From contig JAGBQM010000010.1 in assembly GCA_017632855.1 (NCBI GenBank), positions 1 through 54,314 on the forward strand: a stretch of 54,314 nucleotides of DNA. The letters run 5' to 3'. Every line of letters starts with the position of its first letter. Within the stretch, counting starts at the first letter, position 1. Position numbers and translations under genes: made by a program. Origin of the DNA: Aeriscardovia sp. (GTDB lineage: Bacteria; Actinomycetota; Actinomycetes; Actinomycetales; Bifidobacteriaceae). The notes beneath the pieces are model-generated. The model was not told where the DNA came from and searched no databases. It saw nothing but the letters and a program-made list of their open reading frames with translations. Below, piece after piece: positions 14,383-47,532 of the stretch.

Positions 14383-14979
14383 ATGGCAGATGAAAAGAAT
14401 CAGGCCACTGAGCCCCAAGCTCAGGAGCCGAAAGTAGAATGGGTTGCGGTTCTAGTTTTGTCAATTATAGCCGTAGCCGTTTTGATCGTAGGCTTCTCTG
14501 TATATATGGCCCGCAAGATCAATGAGTACCAGGATCAGCAGAAGATGGCTGAGAAAAAGGCTGAAGCAAAGCAGGCTGCACAGGCTGCCACGATTTTCAC
14601 CAAGGTCATTGATATGAAGGCCACTGCAAATGGACCTGCCGTAGCCACCGTTGATATTGACGGCACTAAGACGAGCTACACCTTCACCGACACCTGGACC
14701 AAGACCGAAGATGTCAAGGTTTCCCAGGATCTCGAAAAGTATGATGCAACTCAGGATGCGGTTGTAGTCTCCGTTAAGGCTCAGTCTCCTTCAACCTCTT
14801 CTTCCTCTTCCTCTTCTTCGTCCACCAGCAGCTCTTCAAAGAGCTCTTCCTCTTCGTCCTCCTCTTCATCCTCTTCAAAGGTTTCCATAGAGGCCAGCGA
14901 AAGCGGAAAAGCTATAGCCCAGAGCAGCGGGTCTGATCACGCCACCCTTTCCGTAACGGTTGGGGATGTAGCCAAGTAA
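14383..14979 (+). CDS. Membrane-anchored serine-rich protein of unknown function
   Basis: I do not recognise a family. The 198-residue product has an 18-residue polar start, then one membrane helix at about residues 19-41 (VEWVAVLVLSIIAVAVLIV), positive residues after it (ARK), and a Gln/Lys/Ala-rich stretch (about 44-70) that could form a coiled coil. A small domain (about 75-130) is followed by a tract of 27 Ser in 31 residues (135-165) and a 33-residue end. There is no signal peptidase site or sortase motif. It looks like a single-pass protein with a linker-like serine spacer, but the orientation in the membrane is uncertain. It stands alone between a promoter region and a terminator. Confidence 0.8.
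   Translation: MADEKNQATEPQAQEPKVEWVAVLVLSIIAVAVLIVGFSVYMARKINEYQDQQKMAEKKAEAKQAAQAATIFTKVIDMKATANGPAVATVDIDGTKTSYTFTDTWTKTEDVKVSQDLEKYDATQDAVVVSVKAQSPSTSSSSSSSSSTSSSSKSSSSSSSSSSSSKVSIEASESGKAIAQSSGSDHATLSVTVGDVAK
14785..14877 (+). repeat. Poly-serine codon tract (TCN/AGC)
   Basis: Thirty-one codons hold 27 serine codons of five kinds (TCT, TCC, TCA, TCG, AGC), interrupted by one Pro, two Thr and one Lys. Mixed codon use suggests the tract is kept for its protein property rather than being a fresh triplet expansion, yet runs of TCT/TCC could still slip in frame. Confidence 0.85.
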
Positions 14980-14988
14980 AGACGGCTC

Positions 14989-15020
14989 AAAAAAATCCCA
15001 GATTGCTCTGGGATTTTTTT
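14989..15020. terminator. Bidirectional terminator between converging genes
   Basis: A/T-flanked stem: ATCCCAGA pairs with TCTGGGAT around TTGC, with A-runs on the left and T-runs on the right, so it works for both strands. It sits between the serine-rich protein gene (plus) and the small membrane protein gene (minus). Confidence 0.92.
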
Positions 15021-15024
15021 ATGC

Positions 15025-15255
15025 TTAGTATTTTCTCTTTTTAACTTTTACCCTGTGTTTGCGGGGGACCTGGTTATAGGTTCCCACCCAAACCCAAAAA
15101 TCTATAAATAGGCATATTGCAGACGCTATTGCCGCCAGTCCAAGCAGTCTCTCCCCTCCATGGAAAAGCAGGTTATGAAGCGCAATCGCTATGGATCCGG
15201 CCAAGCCTATCAGGACGCATATCATTCCTACCAGGGCTTCTACCCTATCGCTCAT
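15025..15255 (-). CDS. Small two-helix membrane protein, unknown
   Basis: Product of 76 residues if it starts at the ATG at 15255 (MSDRVEALVGMICVLIGLAG). A TTG 14 codons upstream (15297) would also be in frame but overlaps the preceding gene by 32 bases. Two hydrophobic helices (about residues 8-28 and 36-56) are followed by a very basic tail (PRKHRVKVKKRKY). No family recognised. It lies 10 bases after the DUF2974 gene and probably shares its transcript. The function is unknown; the tail suggests a cytoplasmic C-terminus. Confidence 0.6.
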   Translation of the reverse strand: MSDRVEALVGMICVLIGLAGSIAIALHNLLFHGGERLLGLAAIASAICLFIDFWVWVGTYNQVPRKHRVKVKKRKY

Positions 15256-15265
15256 AATTTCTATC

Positions 15266-16510
15266 TTAATCTTTAGTTCCAACCTCTTTATGGGCAAACG
15301 CCTTTACGAGAGGAAGCTGAAAAAAGGCGATATTGGCCAGATCCTGGAAGAATTGGACCATTGATTCCCTAAGGCTTGGAGGAAGAGTGCGAAACTGCCT
15401 GTAAAGGCGCGGCAGGGCCGCCTTGAAATCCGAAAAGATGTCGTCAAAGTCCGTATATCCGGCTGCGGCAATTGAATCGAAAAGGGTATCTATAAAAACT
15501 TTCTTTCCCGCAGCATCGTATTTATTTATCCATCTGTTGAAAGTGGAACCTATATAAGCTGCAAGGGGAGCGATTTTTTCGGCCGTGTTAAATTGCAGGT
15601 TTTTTTTGAATTGCCAACTTATCGGGTAGTGCTGCTTTATTCCCGAAGCGTTGCTTTTTACTATGGAATAATGGACGCTCGAGTCCAGAAGGGAACCTAT
15701 AAAGGAAAATTCCGGGACTATTTTGTGGATCTTCGCCTCTATTCTTTTAAATCCTTTGGTTTGCAGAAAATCGCTGTTGAACCCGGGGCCGTCCAAAGAG
15801 TAAATGGCTAAAATTCTGTCCTGCACTTCCGGAGGGCATACGCTGGAGGCGTAGATTGCAAGATTTCCACCTTTGGAGTGGCCGCCAAGTATCACCGCCC
15901 CATGCCAGGACTGAAGCAGCTGCGAAAAATAAGTGGCTGCGACTTTCTGGGAGTGGACAGGGCACAAAAATCCCATTTCATAGTTGTCTTTCCAGCCCCG
16001 CACGGTGCTGTCTGTACCTCTGAAGGAAATGAATAATATTCCGTTTCCAAGGTCGGCTGTAAGGGCGCAAAACCTTTCGGGATCGCTTTTATCCTCCGGC
16101 TCGACTAAGTTTGACAGCCTCACTTCCCTGAACCTGGGACTTTCACCGAGAGCCCTTACCATGTCTATGCAAAGGTCCGGGTTCACTACGTCATACACCA
16201 TCGAGTGGTAAAGCTCTCTTCTCAACAAGTCCTTTATCGGTACCGGATTGGGCTTTACCAAAGGCTGAGGGGCGGATGCGGACTTAGTGGAAATATCTTC
16301 CCCTACAGGGGTTTCAAAAGTCCATGAAGCCTCTTGTCTAAAGAAGTCGTCCAATTCGCCCTGTTCTACGAATTTCGGTATGAAATCCGGCATATGCATA
16401 TAGGGGAGCTGGCAGAATGCTACAGCATCCCTGGCGTTAAAGCGAAGCTGTGAAAAGGGCCGCTCTTCGCCTTCGATGTAGTCGATTACAGACAGCTGTT
16501 TTCTTACCGT
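15266..16510 (-). CDS. DUF2974-family alpha/beta hydrolase with non-standard start
   Basis: Belongs to the DUF2974 (Mbeg1-like, lipase-related) family. Seen: FISFRGTD, a nucleophile elbow GHSKGGNLA, and a downstream SLDGPGFN. These fit an alpha/beta-hydrolase serine esterase, though the substrate is unknown. The first ATG (16399) would drop a conserved family N-terminus. Upstream in frame, the sequence reads VRKQLSVIDYIEGEERPF then FNARD, typical of DUF2974, and is bounded by a stop at 16514-16516. Between that stop and 16399 there is no ATG, GTG or TTG. The best start is ACG at 16508-16510, eight bases after AGAGG. Length from there is 414 codons plus stop. Expressed with the small membrane gene; divergent from adnA. 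Confidence 0.8.
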   Translation of the reverse strand, partial: TVRKQLSVIDYIEGEERPFSQLRFNARDAVAFCQLPYMHMPDFIPKFVEQGELDDFFRQEASWTFETPVGEDISTKSASAPQPLVKPNPVPIKDLLRRELYHSMVYDVVNPDLCIDMVRALGESPRFREVRLSNLVEPEDKSDPERFCALTADLGNGILFISFRGTDSTVRGWKDNYEMGFLCPVHSQKVAATYFSQLLQSWHGAVILGGHSKGGNLAIYASSVCPPEVQDRILAIYSLDGPGFNSDFLQTKGFKRIEAKIHKIVPEFSFIGSLLDSSVHYSIVKSNASGIKQHYPISWQFKKNLQFNTAEKIAPLAAYIGSTFNRWINKYDAAGKKVFIDTLFDSIAAAGYTDFDDIFSDFKAALPRLYRQFRTLPPSLRESMVQFFQDLANIAFFQLPLVKAFAHKEVGTKD

Positions 16511-16518
16511 TTTTTATA

Positions 16519-16525
16519 CCTCTTT
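16519..16525 (-). promoter_or_regulatory. Ribosome-binding site before the ACG start of the DUF2974 gene
   Basis: AAAGAGG on the minus strand lies eight bases upstream of the ACG at 16508-16510, the ideal spacing. No similar site precedes the first ATG at 16399. It supports initiation at the ACG position. Confidence 0.55.
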
Positions 16526-16565
16526 GTAAGTAGAATATTCCACAAATGCATTTTGAAGGGGGACT

Positions 16566-19500
16566 ATGTCCAATTCTTTAAGTTTAGACCAGGCAGTTGA
16601 AAAGGCTCAGGAGGCCATAGAAAAAAGGGGGGCGCTTCGCTTTTCGGGAAGATGCGGAGTAGGGAAAACCAGTCTTTGCGAAGAAATACTCGAAAAATAT
16701 AAAGAGGAAGTCCTTAAAGGCGCTGCTTTCATGGTAGCTCCATGGAGCCGTGAAGCTGTAGACATTCTAAGCGATAAGGTACTTTCAAAGCTTTTGACCC
16801 ATGAAACCGGGATTTACGCCACAGATCCCAGACCTGTTAAAACCCCTGCGGCTCTGGCCTTCGCGCTTTTGAAAAAAAATAATGAAAATATTCGGCTCTT
16901 GGACGTTTCCGATCAAACTAAGCTCATTTCCGAGGTAATAAAGAAAATTGTAGTGCAGGTAAGCGCAGGGAATGAAAGCAATTCTGGCGGCATATGTATG
17001 AAACTGAGAGAATACATCCATTCCGACAATTCTCAGTTGGAGATTGGCGCCACTACGGATTCCAAATTCGAGAAGGTATTTCTGGCTCCCCAATTTATAA
17101 CCAAGCTCAGGGAAATTTTTGCAAGATTCAGCGAATTGGGCATCGGACTTGAAGATAAAGACATTGTTGGGTTTGAAAACAATTTGAAAGACCTTGAATT
17201 GGAAGAAGACAGAAGGCGGCATGCGTGCCTTAGCTGGGAAATTGTGCAGGATCTCAGGTCTAGGTATGTTGCTTCTATTGAGGAGAACTATCCAAATTAC
17301 TATGACAATTCCTACATGCTGCTCGAATGCAAGAGAAAAGTTGAATCCGGATATATGGATGGAAACCTTCCAAAGCTCGTTGTAGTCGATGACTGCCAAG
17401 ATTTGAATTTGGCCACTTTTGATCTTTTGGAAGCATTGCATTTAAAGGGAGTCCCCCTCATATTCGTTGGAAATGACGATGAATCGGTACAAAATTACAA
17501 AGGCGCCTTCCCTGATGTCTTGTCAATTTTGGAAACGAAAAACTTCGAAGGTCCATATTCGCTGGAGAATGAGGATGTGCCTGAGGCGAAATTCCTGCAA
17601 GATACGTCTAAGAATATAGGATCATGGTTCCAATTTATGGGAACACCTATCAAAGAGGCGGCTAGAACCGCAAAAGGGTACGCGCCTCTTGGTTCTTTCA
17701 GATATGTAATAACTAAATCTGAAGAAGAAGAGATCGCCCTGCTTAAAAACGAGATTTTAAGCTGCAAAATTGAAGAGAAAAAGGAATGGGGGGATCTGGC
17801 CGTAGTCGCCAACGACAATGCCTTCTTAAAAAGGATTGGGGAAGATTTAGATAGGGATGGCATTCCATTCAAGTACACCGCCGTTAATGACGAGTCAATT
17901 AAAGACAGCCCAATAATTAAGGGAATGCTCGCGCTTATGCAGCTGGCCTATTACGCTTCGGGGCAGGAATCGGTTCAGGCTATGCGTCAAAATGCCTTTT
18001 CCCTGGCAGTAGCCGCGCTTCAGTCTCCCCTGTTTGAAAGTGCGAAAACTGCGCAGATTTTTATTGCCAAAAATATTTTTCAGGCTGTCCTATCGTCCTT
18101 GGCATCAGCGCGAAATCAAGATAGTGGGCAGCCTAATGATATTTTTGAAAAGTTTTCAGCCTTTAAAAAGTGGCTTGACTGGACCGAGGTCGCAGAAAAG
18201 GACAAAAACCTCGAGGCATTTTTTGCTTTTCTTCTCATTAACCCTTCCGACAGGGAAAAGATTTTCAAAGCATTGGAAGCCGATGGCGAAAAGAGGAACA
18301 ATTTCCGGGATTTTGAGACGTTATTCGAATTACTGGATAAGGCCAAGGATATAAACAGCGTTCCGGAACTTTTCTGCAATCTTTGGGAGGGGTGCGGACT
18401 TCGCTACAAGTGGCAGAGTCGCGCTCTTAAGGGAGGGGCAAAATCCGTCGAAGTCAACGAGTGGCTGGATCAGCTTATACGCCTTCAAGATTTAGCGGAT
18501 ACGGGCAAAGAAGGGGAAAGCATTCCGAACTTTCTGAAACGGGTATCCAACTCTTATATAGAGTCCGATTCTTTAGCCCAGGTCGCGCCCAAAGATGACA
18601 GAATCACCCTTTCCTCGCCCTCAGGCTTGCAGTCGAAAAGGTACAAAAAGGTATGGGTAGCAGATGTGCAGGAAAAGGTCTGGGATAAATATGTTATAGA
18701 AGAGTTATTTGATACCCACCTTCTGGAAGCTGTAGCTACAAAAGACCGTGTGGACAAAATAGCCCCCCGATTTCTTCCTAAAGATGTACGAGAAGTTAGG
18801 GATCGCTTTGAAGTTGAGGAAAAATACTCGAATTGGCGTAGCTTCTTAGTAGCTTCTTCCAGATCCGATGGGGAAACCGTATTTTTGGCAGTTTCCGATC
18901 AGGAACATGCCCCGTTTTATGGCGTAAATTCCCTTATTGCGATAGGGGGCACCTGCCCATTCTTCCCAAACAGTCAATCCGAGCTGGAGCTAGGACGCCT
19001 TACGACCGAAGGAATGGCGGCATACTGCAGATCCAAATTGGCAAAGGCAATTTTAGAAGGGAACTCGGAAATGGCAGACGACGCTGCTAACGCATTACGA
19101 ATGCTAATGCGAGCCGGGGTGGAAAAAGCCGATCCGAAATCTTGGAATTTCACGCGTGCCGCAAAGCCTGAGTGCTCCAATGAAGATTCGGGAAAGAATA
19201 TATATCTGAAGCCTTCAGGTGTAGATGGAATTTGGAACACTCCCGTCAGACAAACCCTTCAAAATAATGAGGGGCCTACAAAGTCTGAATCTCAGATGCA
19301 GTTTGGGACTACTATTCACGCTTGCGCGCAATGGGCGACTGAGGAAGGGAAAGATCGCAGCGAAAGGGAAGAGCAACTTAAAGAGGAGTTGCTAAAGCAC
19401 TTTAAAGAGCTGCAGGATGAGCAGGCCGACCTGAGCAGCCTTGATAGGGGAAACTACGAACGAAAAGCCAGAAAAGCCATGGCTAATTTGGCTACATATT

Positions 19501-20432
19501 TTGCCACTACCTGCGATCCTGAAAAATCAGAAGCTTGCCCTTCTGAATTAAAGGATGTTCCTCCTCTGGAAAAAGCATTTGCAGAGCAGCGTCTAGAAGC
19601 AAACTTCACTATTGAAAACATTTATGAAATGGCAAAACGGAGCGACGCCTTTAGAGGCATGGATTTTACTGAAGACGAATTTATTGAGGCTATGGAAATC
19701 CTTGGGAATTTTGAAGGTCTGGCATCGGTGAAAGGTAAGAAGATTTGCTTGACAGGCACAATTGATCGCTTGGAGAGGCGCGAGGGAGGTAAAACCTATG
19801 TGATTGACTATAAGACAGGGTCTAGCTACTGCAATGGCATAAAAGATGTTTCCGATCTGCAGTTATTCTGCTATCAGCTGCTTTTACACTTCAATAAGAG
19901 TTCTGAAACAAAAAAGAAATATGGAGATCGCGCAGCCAGGTCAATGCTGTTTTCGGTGGAAAAGGAGCCATACCCCGCTTCATCTAAAGATATGACCCCC
20001 GCCAATAAGGGCGATTATAACTACGAACATTATTATCAGCCATGCATATTCGACATATCTGGAACAAAATTTAATGAGGCCGAGAACGATCGGAAAAAGC
20101 CTCTGACAAAGAAAGGAGATGTGCGGGAGGGCACGCCTATTGCGGGATCTATGCCGGAAGCGGCCATAGAATCAGACAATCGCGTGCTACGAGCCCTAAA
20201 TATCCAGGGCAAAACCGAAAGAGGATATGAAAAAGATCAGGAAACCTGGCTGCCGTGGGTTTTCTACATGTTTGCCAAGTTCTTCTATGCGGTCAGGTAT
20301 GTGAATGCATTGCAGATTCAAATGAGGGAAATAGACGAAGGTGACAGCGCTCACCACCTCATAGAAAAGGCAATGACAATATACGGCATGGCGGAAAAAG
20401 TGAACGGTACTAAGGAAGATTACGATGAATAA
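16566..20432 (+). CDS. adnA: AdnA-like UvrD-family helicase/nuclease subunit
   Basis: Probable first subunit of the actinobacterial AdnAB complex, which resects double-strand DNA ends for recombination. The 1288-residue product has an N-terminal SF1 motor with P-loop GRCGVGKTS (about residues 28-36). Motif II is DDCQD (275-279) in place of the usual DExxD. The C-terminal PD-(D/E)XK nuclease shows GTIDRLERREG and VIDYKTG (Asp1081, Lys1083), then LQLFCYQLLL. The changed motif II suggests a weak or accessory motor, which fits AdnA of mycobacteria as I recall it. Length exceeds the roughly 1050 residues of mycobacterial AdnA. The eight-base overlap with the next gene and the adnA-adnB order support the call. 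The exact subunit naming is inferred. Confidence 0.82.
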   Translation: MSNSLSLDQAVEKAQEAIEKRGALRFSGRCGVGKTSLCEEILEKYKEEVLKGAAFMVAPWSREAVDILSDKVLSKLLTHETGIYATDPRPVKTPAALAFALLKKNNENIRLLDVSDQTKLISEVIKKIVVQVSAGNESNSGGICMKLREYIHSDNSQLEIGATTDSKFEKVFLAPQFITKLREIFARFSELGIGLEDKDIVGFENNLKDLELEEDRRRHACLSWEIVQDLRSRYVASIEENYPNYYDNSYMLLECKRKVESGYMDGNLPKLVVVDDCQDLNLATFDLLEALHLKGVPLIFVGNDDESVQNYKGAFPDVLSILETKNFEGPYSLENEDVPEAKFLQDTSKNIGSWFQFMGTPIKEAARTAKGYAPLGSFRYVITKSEEEEIALLKNEILSCKIEEKKEWGDLAVVANDNAFLKRIGEDLDRDGIPFKYTAVNDESIKDSPIIKGMLALMQLAYYASGQESVQAMRQNAFSLAVAALQSPLFESAKTAQIFIAKNIFQAVLSSLASARNQDSGQPNDIFEKFSAFKKWLDWTEVAEKDKNLEAFFAFLLINPSDREKIFKALEADGEKRNNFRDFETLFELLDKAKDINSVPELFCNLWEGCGLRYKWQSRALKGGAKSVEVNEWLDQLIRLQDLADTGKEGESIPNFLKRVSNSYIESDSLAQVAPKDDRITLSSPSGLQSKRYKKVWVADVQEKVWDKYVIEELFDTHLLEAVATKDRVDKIAPRFLPKDVREVRDRFEVEEKYSNWRSFLVASSRSDGETVFLAVSDQEHAPFYGVNSLIAIGGTCPFFPNSQSELELGRLTTEGMAAYCRSKLAKAILEGNSEMADDAANALRMLMRAGVEKADPKSWNFTRAAKPECSNEDSGKNIYLKPSGVDGIWNTPVRQTLQNNEGPTKSESQMQFGTTIHACAQWATEEGKDRSEREEQLKEELLKHFKELQDEQADLSSLDRGNYERKARKAMANLATYFATTCDPEKSEACPSELKDVPPLEKAFAEQRLEANFTIENIYEMAKRSDAFRGMDFTEDEFIEAMEILGNFEGLASVKGKKICLTGTIDRLERREGGKTYVIDYKTGSSYCNGIKDVSDLQLFCYQLLLHFNKSSETKKKYGDRAARSMLFSVEKEPYPASSKDMTPANKGDYNYEHYYQPCIFDISGTKFNEAENDRKKPLTKKGDVREGTPIAGSMPEAAIESDNRVLRALNIQGKTERGYEKDQETWLPWVFYMFAKFFYAVRYVNALQIQMREIDEGDSAHHLIEKAMTIYGMAEKVNGTKEDYDE

Positions 20433-47475: not shown

Positions 47476-47532
47476 ATAAAAAAGGTATCCTATAAGCGGG
47501 ACTTGATTTACTTTTTAAGCTGGTGAAGTGCA

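Follow-up and report, generated by a model that had tools for sequence, protein, structure and literature searches.

The DUF2974 gene and its neighbours

The window, that is, the whole stretch of 54,314 nucleotides analysed here (contig JAGBQM010000010.1), belongs to an Aeriscardovia sp. genome of 767 kb in 41 contigs (G000). A gene of the DUF2974 type is found on its minus strand. The features of this region are the following:

15266..16510, minus strand: Mbeg1-like gene (DUF2974, PF11187), read from ACG, 414 codons plus its own stop (TAA, 15268-15266)
16508..16510, minus strand: proposed start codon ACG, invariant in 6/6 species
16514..16516, minus strand: preceding stop in the same frame, TAA (TGA in two species)
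16519..16525, minus strand: Shine-Dalgarno-like AAAGAGG, 8 nt before the ACG, GAGG invariant in 6/6 species
16397..16507, minus strand: N-terminal codons 3-38, conserved at the protein level, with the first ATG inside the gene (codon 39)
15025..15255, minus strand: conserved membrane-like ORF of 76 amino acids with an ATG start, directly downstream of the DUF2974 gene, found in 5/5 congeners
16566..20432, plus strand: AddB/UvrD-PDDEXK-like gene, divergent, with about 50 nt between both starts

The encoded protein matches Pfam family PF11187 with 238.2 bits (gathering cut-off 21.1), covering positions 2-224 of the 224 in the profile, and this match is found in all six aligned species. NCBIfam gives no match for the window protein. 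The Pfam entry names no activity; the putatively hydrolase-like protein contains the string GHSKGG, which we take to be a nucleophile-elbow-like motif. A sequence search of the PDB only gives a weak match to a putative lipase (7x2p, E 0.49), and an AlphaFold model made from six near-identical rows has a mean pLDDT of 42.5, too low for reading an alpha/beta-hydrolase-like fold from it.

The 76-residue ORF has no Pfam match and is probably part of the same transcript as the DUF2974 gene. In one congener (L034) this ORF has an extra upstream ATG in another frame. A scan of positions 14950-16700 for one promoter type, sigma-70-like, found none, and no terminator was found either. Elsewhere in the window, a DUF3043 gene (PF11241, 46846-47838, minus strand) is apparently divided between two frames, with the break at an A-run near 47515. 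Its counterpart in genome G004 is a single frame of 326 codons; the split may come from an indel in the assembly or be a genuine frameshift.

The start region and its conservation

An earlier note on this DNA had described the DUF2974 gene as having no ATG, GTG or TTG at its conserved N-terminus, with an ACG eight bases from AAAGAGG, and direct reading of the minus strand agrees exactly. The frame opens after TAA (16516-16514), followed by AAA (16513-16511) and ACG (16510-16508); the codons after the stop are AAA ACG GTA AGA AAA CAG CTG TCT GTA ATC GAC TAC. The AAAGAGG element occupies positions 16525-16519. No ATG, GTG or TTG is present in this frame of the window between the stop and the first ATG (16399-16397), which is separated from the ACG by 36 sense codons. 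In the numbering used here the ACG is codon 2 and the ATG at 16399 is codon 39. Given the stop at 16514-16516, any in-frame start further upstream is excluded.

The note had also taken the 36 codons upstream of 16399 for the N-terminus of the family, and they do match members from other genera. We have examined 24 family loci. The anchor motif is found in 14 of them, which correspond to 13 distinct genes (L009 and L031 are the same gene); the 10 loci lacking it are outside this count. All 13 genes have a homologous N-terminus, with an I-x-D-Y-like motif followed by LxxLxY, and in all of them an ATG or GTG is placed 2-4 codons before the first motif. Since these other genera begin with ATG or GTG, the ACG would be a derived but old state of the genus. 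As aligned by eye, the ancestral start point corresponds to Q6, so that the ACG is predicted to add four residues ahead of it.

We have compared the window genome with six congeners. The gene is present in five and was not found in the sixth, G003. The five assemblies that carry it are MAGs named 'Aeriscardovia sp.', obtained from the abomasum or reticulum of goat, yak and water buffalo. Their proteins are 87-96% identical to that of the window, and synonymous sites are near saturation. The ACG is invariant in the six species (five congeners and the window), and none has the C to T change at the middle base that would give ATG. In the alignment of the start region, the Shine-Dalgarno block GAGGTATRAAAAACGG is identical in all six apart from R. 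In L034 and L036 the DNA upstream of this block cannot be aligned with the other species, the block itself being retained. The upstream in-frame stop is also kept in all six, as TAA in four and TGA in two. In the gene as a whole, the six species share an unchanged base at only 14 of 128 four-fold sites; for two-fold sites containing C, the figure is 18 of 85. Values of dN/dS range from 0.02 to 0.07 in the pairs for which they could be computed; three of the 15 pairs gave none because of saturation.

These comparisons bear directly on the explanations offered in the note. A base-calling error at 16508-16510 is refuted, since the same triplet is found in five other, independent assemblies. A recent ATG-to-ACG mutation finds no support and is excluded by the presence of the ACG in every sampled species of the genus that has the gene: where close relatives were to be compared for an ATG at this position, none of the species has one. 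The probability that a sequencing or assembly error, or a recent private mutation, lies behind the ACG is therefore practically nil.

The point at which coding begins may be narrowed down from the codons themselves. Across the six species, codon 2 is always ACG, while the following codons are GTA or GCA (codon 3), AGA or AAA (4), AAA or AAG (5), CAG or CAA (6), CTG, TTA or TTG (7) and TCT or TCC (8). Every change in codons 5 to 16 is synonymous, so coding begins between codons 2 and 5; of codons 1-5, only the ACG is a usable near-cognate start throughout the six species. Codon 7 cannot be a shared start, as it is TTA in three species. L036 has TTG at codon 7 and L033 has GTG at codon 31, neither of which is found in the other species.

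Rival readings and the proposed mechanism of initiation

The reading we prefer, and consider highly probable from the sequence comparisons, is that translation of the DUF2974-like gene begins with the ACG at 16508-16510, and that this is a real, old and conserved start. True ACG initiation was among the options of the earlier note, and it is the one favoured by an ACG found in 6/6 species with a Shine-Dalgarno element at 8 nt. Translation might instead begin further inside the gene, at codon 39 (the ATG at 16399) or at another ATG two codons later, the codons upstream being conserved for some other reason. The ATG at 16399 is the first in frame and is present in all six species, where its Met lies inside a conserved motif. 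Nevertheless, codons 3-38 match the family N-terminus in other genera and evolve as protein (in the 30 aligned codons before any canonical start, compared with one congener, we find 8 synonymous and 2 non-synonymous codon differences), and no purine-rich Shine-Dalgarno element precedes 16399. We regard an internal start as quite improbable.

The ACG might also represent a loss of function in a decaying, barely expressed gene, a reading which fits a small genome (about 0.77 Mb) and the absence of the gene from the G003 sequences searched. It is very improbable in view of the low dN/dS, the frame kept intact in six species and the invariant Shine-Dalgarno element. Even less probability can be given to a start at the ATR located one nucleotide past GAGG, with a +1 shift on the A-run then bringing the ribosome into the frame of the gene. 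This ATR and the AAAAAC after it are conserved, and the codon is ATG in L035 and L036, but it is ATA in the other four species, a spacing of one nucleotide is too short for use of the Shine-Dalgarno element, and a frameshift is required in addition.

In translation from the ACG, the GAGG element, in an A-rich leader, would position the 30S subunit. This element is moderate rather than extended, and the leader is unstructured: the predicted RNA fold of the start region does not differ from that of shuffled sequences in the three species tried (z 0.02, 0.58 and 0.67). The 16S 3' end was not found in the stretches of the genus examined, including a search with Rfam on four pieces. The ordinary initiator tRNA (anticodon CAU) would then pair with the first and third positions of the ACG, the middle one being mismatched, and the protein would begin with formyl-Met followed by VRKQLSVIDY. 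With a mismatch at its middle base, ACG is expected to be a very inefficient start in bacteria. In the simplest mechanism initiation would be weak and limited by IF3, and selection would keep it weak.

We find three tRNAs with anticodon CAU (ARAGORN, in the pieces of G000 examined and the window). A single one, in L085, is of the initiator type: its anticodon stem has three G-C pairs and its first position is unpaired, features which we take to mark it as the initiator. The tRNA-Thr(CGU) is ordinary. An altered initiator tRNA was considered and rejected, as this single initiator-type tRNA is conventional. IF3 is present in the seven genomes of the genus with the core motifs of the family, and inspection by eye of all seven shows no obvious loss.

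Conserved non-canonical starts are a known feature of other genes. The infC genes, coding for IF3, start with AUU, AUC or AUA, which holds their expression low, and they are autoregulated. The DUF2974 gene resembles them in having a conserved non-canonical start (the ATA of infC is invariant in 7/7 genomes of the genus), but its mismatch is in the middle base instead of the third, and no link to IF3 is known. In E. coli, the chromosomal pcnB gene reportedly has an AUU start and is translationally limited; it is a different gene with a different codon. Gvozdjak and Samanta (2020, arXiv) are said to describe bacterial genes which prefer non-AUG starts.

In S. aureus, cvfC1 (AUU), ccpN (AUA) and citZ (AUA) have non-canonical starts with Shine-Dalgarno elements, conserved for cvfC1 and ccpN; the AUU and AUA starts give about 10% of the AUG yield in poor medium, and ccpN up to 30% in rich medium (PMC13009471). 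These genes combine a third-base mismatch with an extended Shine-Dalgarno element, in contrast with the ACG and GAGG found here (PMC13009471). In plastids, rpl2, psbL and ndhD have an ACG at the start in DNA, like the DUF2974 gene, and restore AUG by C-to-U RNA editing; such editing is stated not to be observed in bacteria (PMC9845219). ACG is also named among the starts of very short sORFs in the description of an sORF database (PMC11796252). In the papers surveyed, the longer bacterial genes with conserved non-canonical starts are of the AUU or AUA type. A non-exhaustive literature search found no report of a natural ACG start in a long bacterial chromosomal gene.

By its sequence, the DUF2974 gene belongs with the conserved non-canonical starts: there is no canonical start at its N-terminus, and the near-cognate codon and the Shine-Dalgarno element are conserved in the six species. 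With the S. aureus genes as a model, the ACG plausibly lowers expression and probably serves as a built-in brake on the amount of protein, and its likely meaning is a deliberately weak, IF3-sensitive initiation. The ACG is a single transition away from ATG and has been kept for the depth of the genus, a pattern that points to selection in favour of a poor start codon.

Possible non-canonical starts elsewhere in the genus

In a scan of two genomes, G000 and G004, a coding signature was present in 601 orthologue pairs, and in 560 under stricter cut-offs. The 560-pair scan flagged 163 cases; pairs were retained if their synonymous differences equalled or outnumbered the non-synonymous ones, and 20 of these were inspected. 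A separate filter kept 15 of the 601 pairs. Further cases were picked by hand, a subjective choice; lspA was inspected and is not counted.

Four further genes have no ATG, GTG or TTG at their conserved N-terminus. A class E sortase (L072 from 18007) has ATT after GGAGG in 7/7 genomes, and a membrane protein (L072 5786, minus strand) has ATT after AAGGAGG, also in all seven. A proline/serine-rich membrane protein (L066 from 10290) shows GGGAGGAGAG, then A or C, then ACG in 7/7 genomes. A DUF3516 helicase (L123 from 10285) has ACG in the seven genomes, preceded by ATT (ACT in G003). The last two are weaker cases: read by eye, the start of each lies within the 3' end of the gene before it, which is in a different frame, and this overlap alone is a constraint on the bases concerned. 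The C of each ACG is the third base of an upstream Asn or Tyr codon and is kept in all seven genomes; a T in its place would leave the upstream amino acid unchanged and produce an ATG. As AAC (67%) and TAC (72%) are the preferred codons in this genome, the retained C gives only mild support for these ACG starts.

Rough estimates of the probability that three ACGs all keep their C by chance (0.0095), and that five genes all have a near-cognate codon at Shine-Dalgarno distance (0.0024), ignore the selection of cases and are not significance values. A crude, unselected count over the 601 pairs shows no enrichment of near-cognates at this distance (14/103 near-cognate codons, against 89/647 other identical codons), because much of what lies upstream belongs to other frames or is an antisense shadow.

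As a one-sided control from another genus, 400 kb of G011 were compared with G000 (105 reciprocal pairs) and with G004 (119). On the G011 side the filter gave 3 and 6 cases in the two comparisons, against 6 in G000 and 12 in G004. Most of these are antisense shadows when inspected by eye, with one clear case in G011 (infC) and one in G004 (the helicase); in G011 the helicase gene carries GTG and ATG codons close to its start. This control fits a special genus as well as an ordinary one, and is too small to call the genus unusual.

The start region of infC in the genus is GGAG-AAGTT-ATA in 7/7 genomes (L156, that is, G000:C17, with its congeners among L153-L159), and the ATA is the apparent start of infC. 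We searched 12 loci from other genera of the family, and the nine with the motif have ATC or ATT at this place; the codon follows GGAGTC in six of them and GGAGAC in three. A non-canonical start of infC appears to extend across the family.

These sequences suggest that the DUF2974 start is not alone in the genus. A wider reading, which we consider possible but rather doubtful, is that this reduced-genome bifidobacterial lineage uses ACG, ATT and ATA starts as stable, genus-wide features of several genes, either because start-codon selection is relaxed or as a regulon-like brake under the level of IF3. It would include the DUF2974 gene, the DUF3516 helicase, the proline/serine-rich membrane protein, the class E sortase, the second membrane protein and infC. 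If several genes do share near-cognate starts, the genus would be a natural test of how IF3 and the initiator tRNA set start-codon stringency. In practice, gene callers limited to ATG, GTG and TTG would trim the conserved N-terminus of the DUF2974 protein and place the starts of the helicase and sortase genes wrongly. We should also note that the helicase match in G003 (L184, G003:C9 12734-15241) contains one TGA in its frame, which the other six genomes lack.
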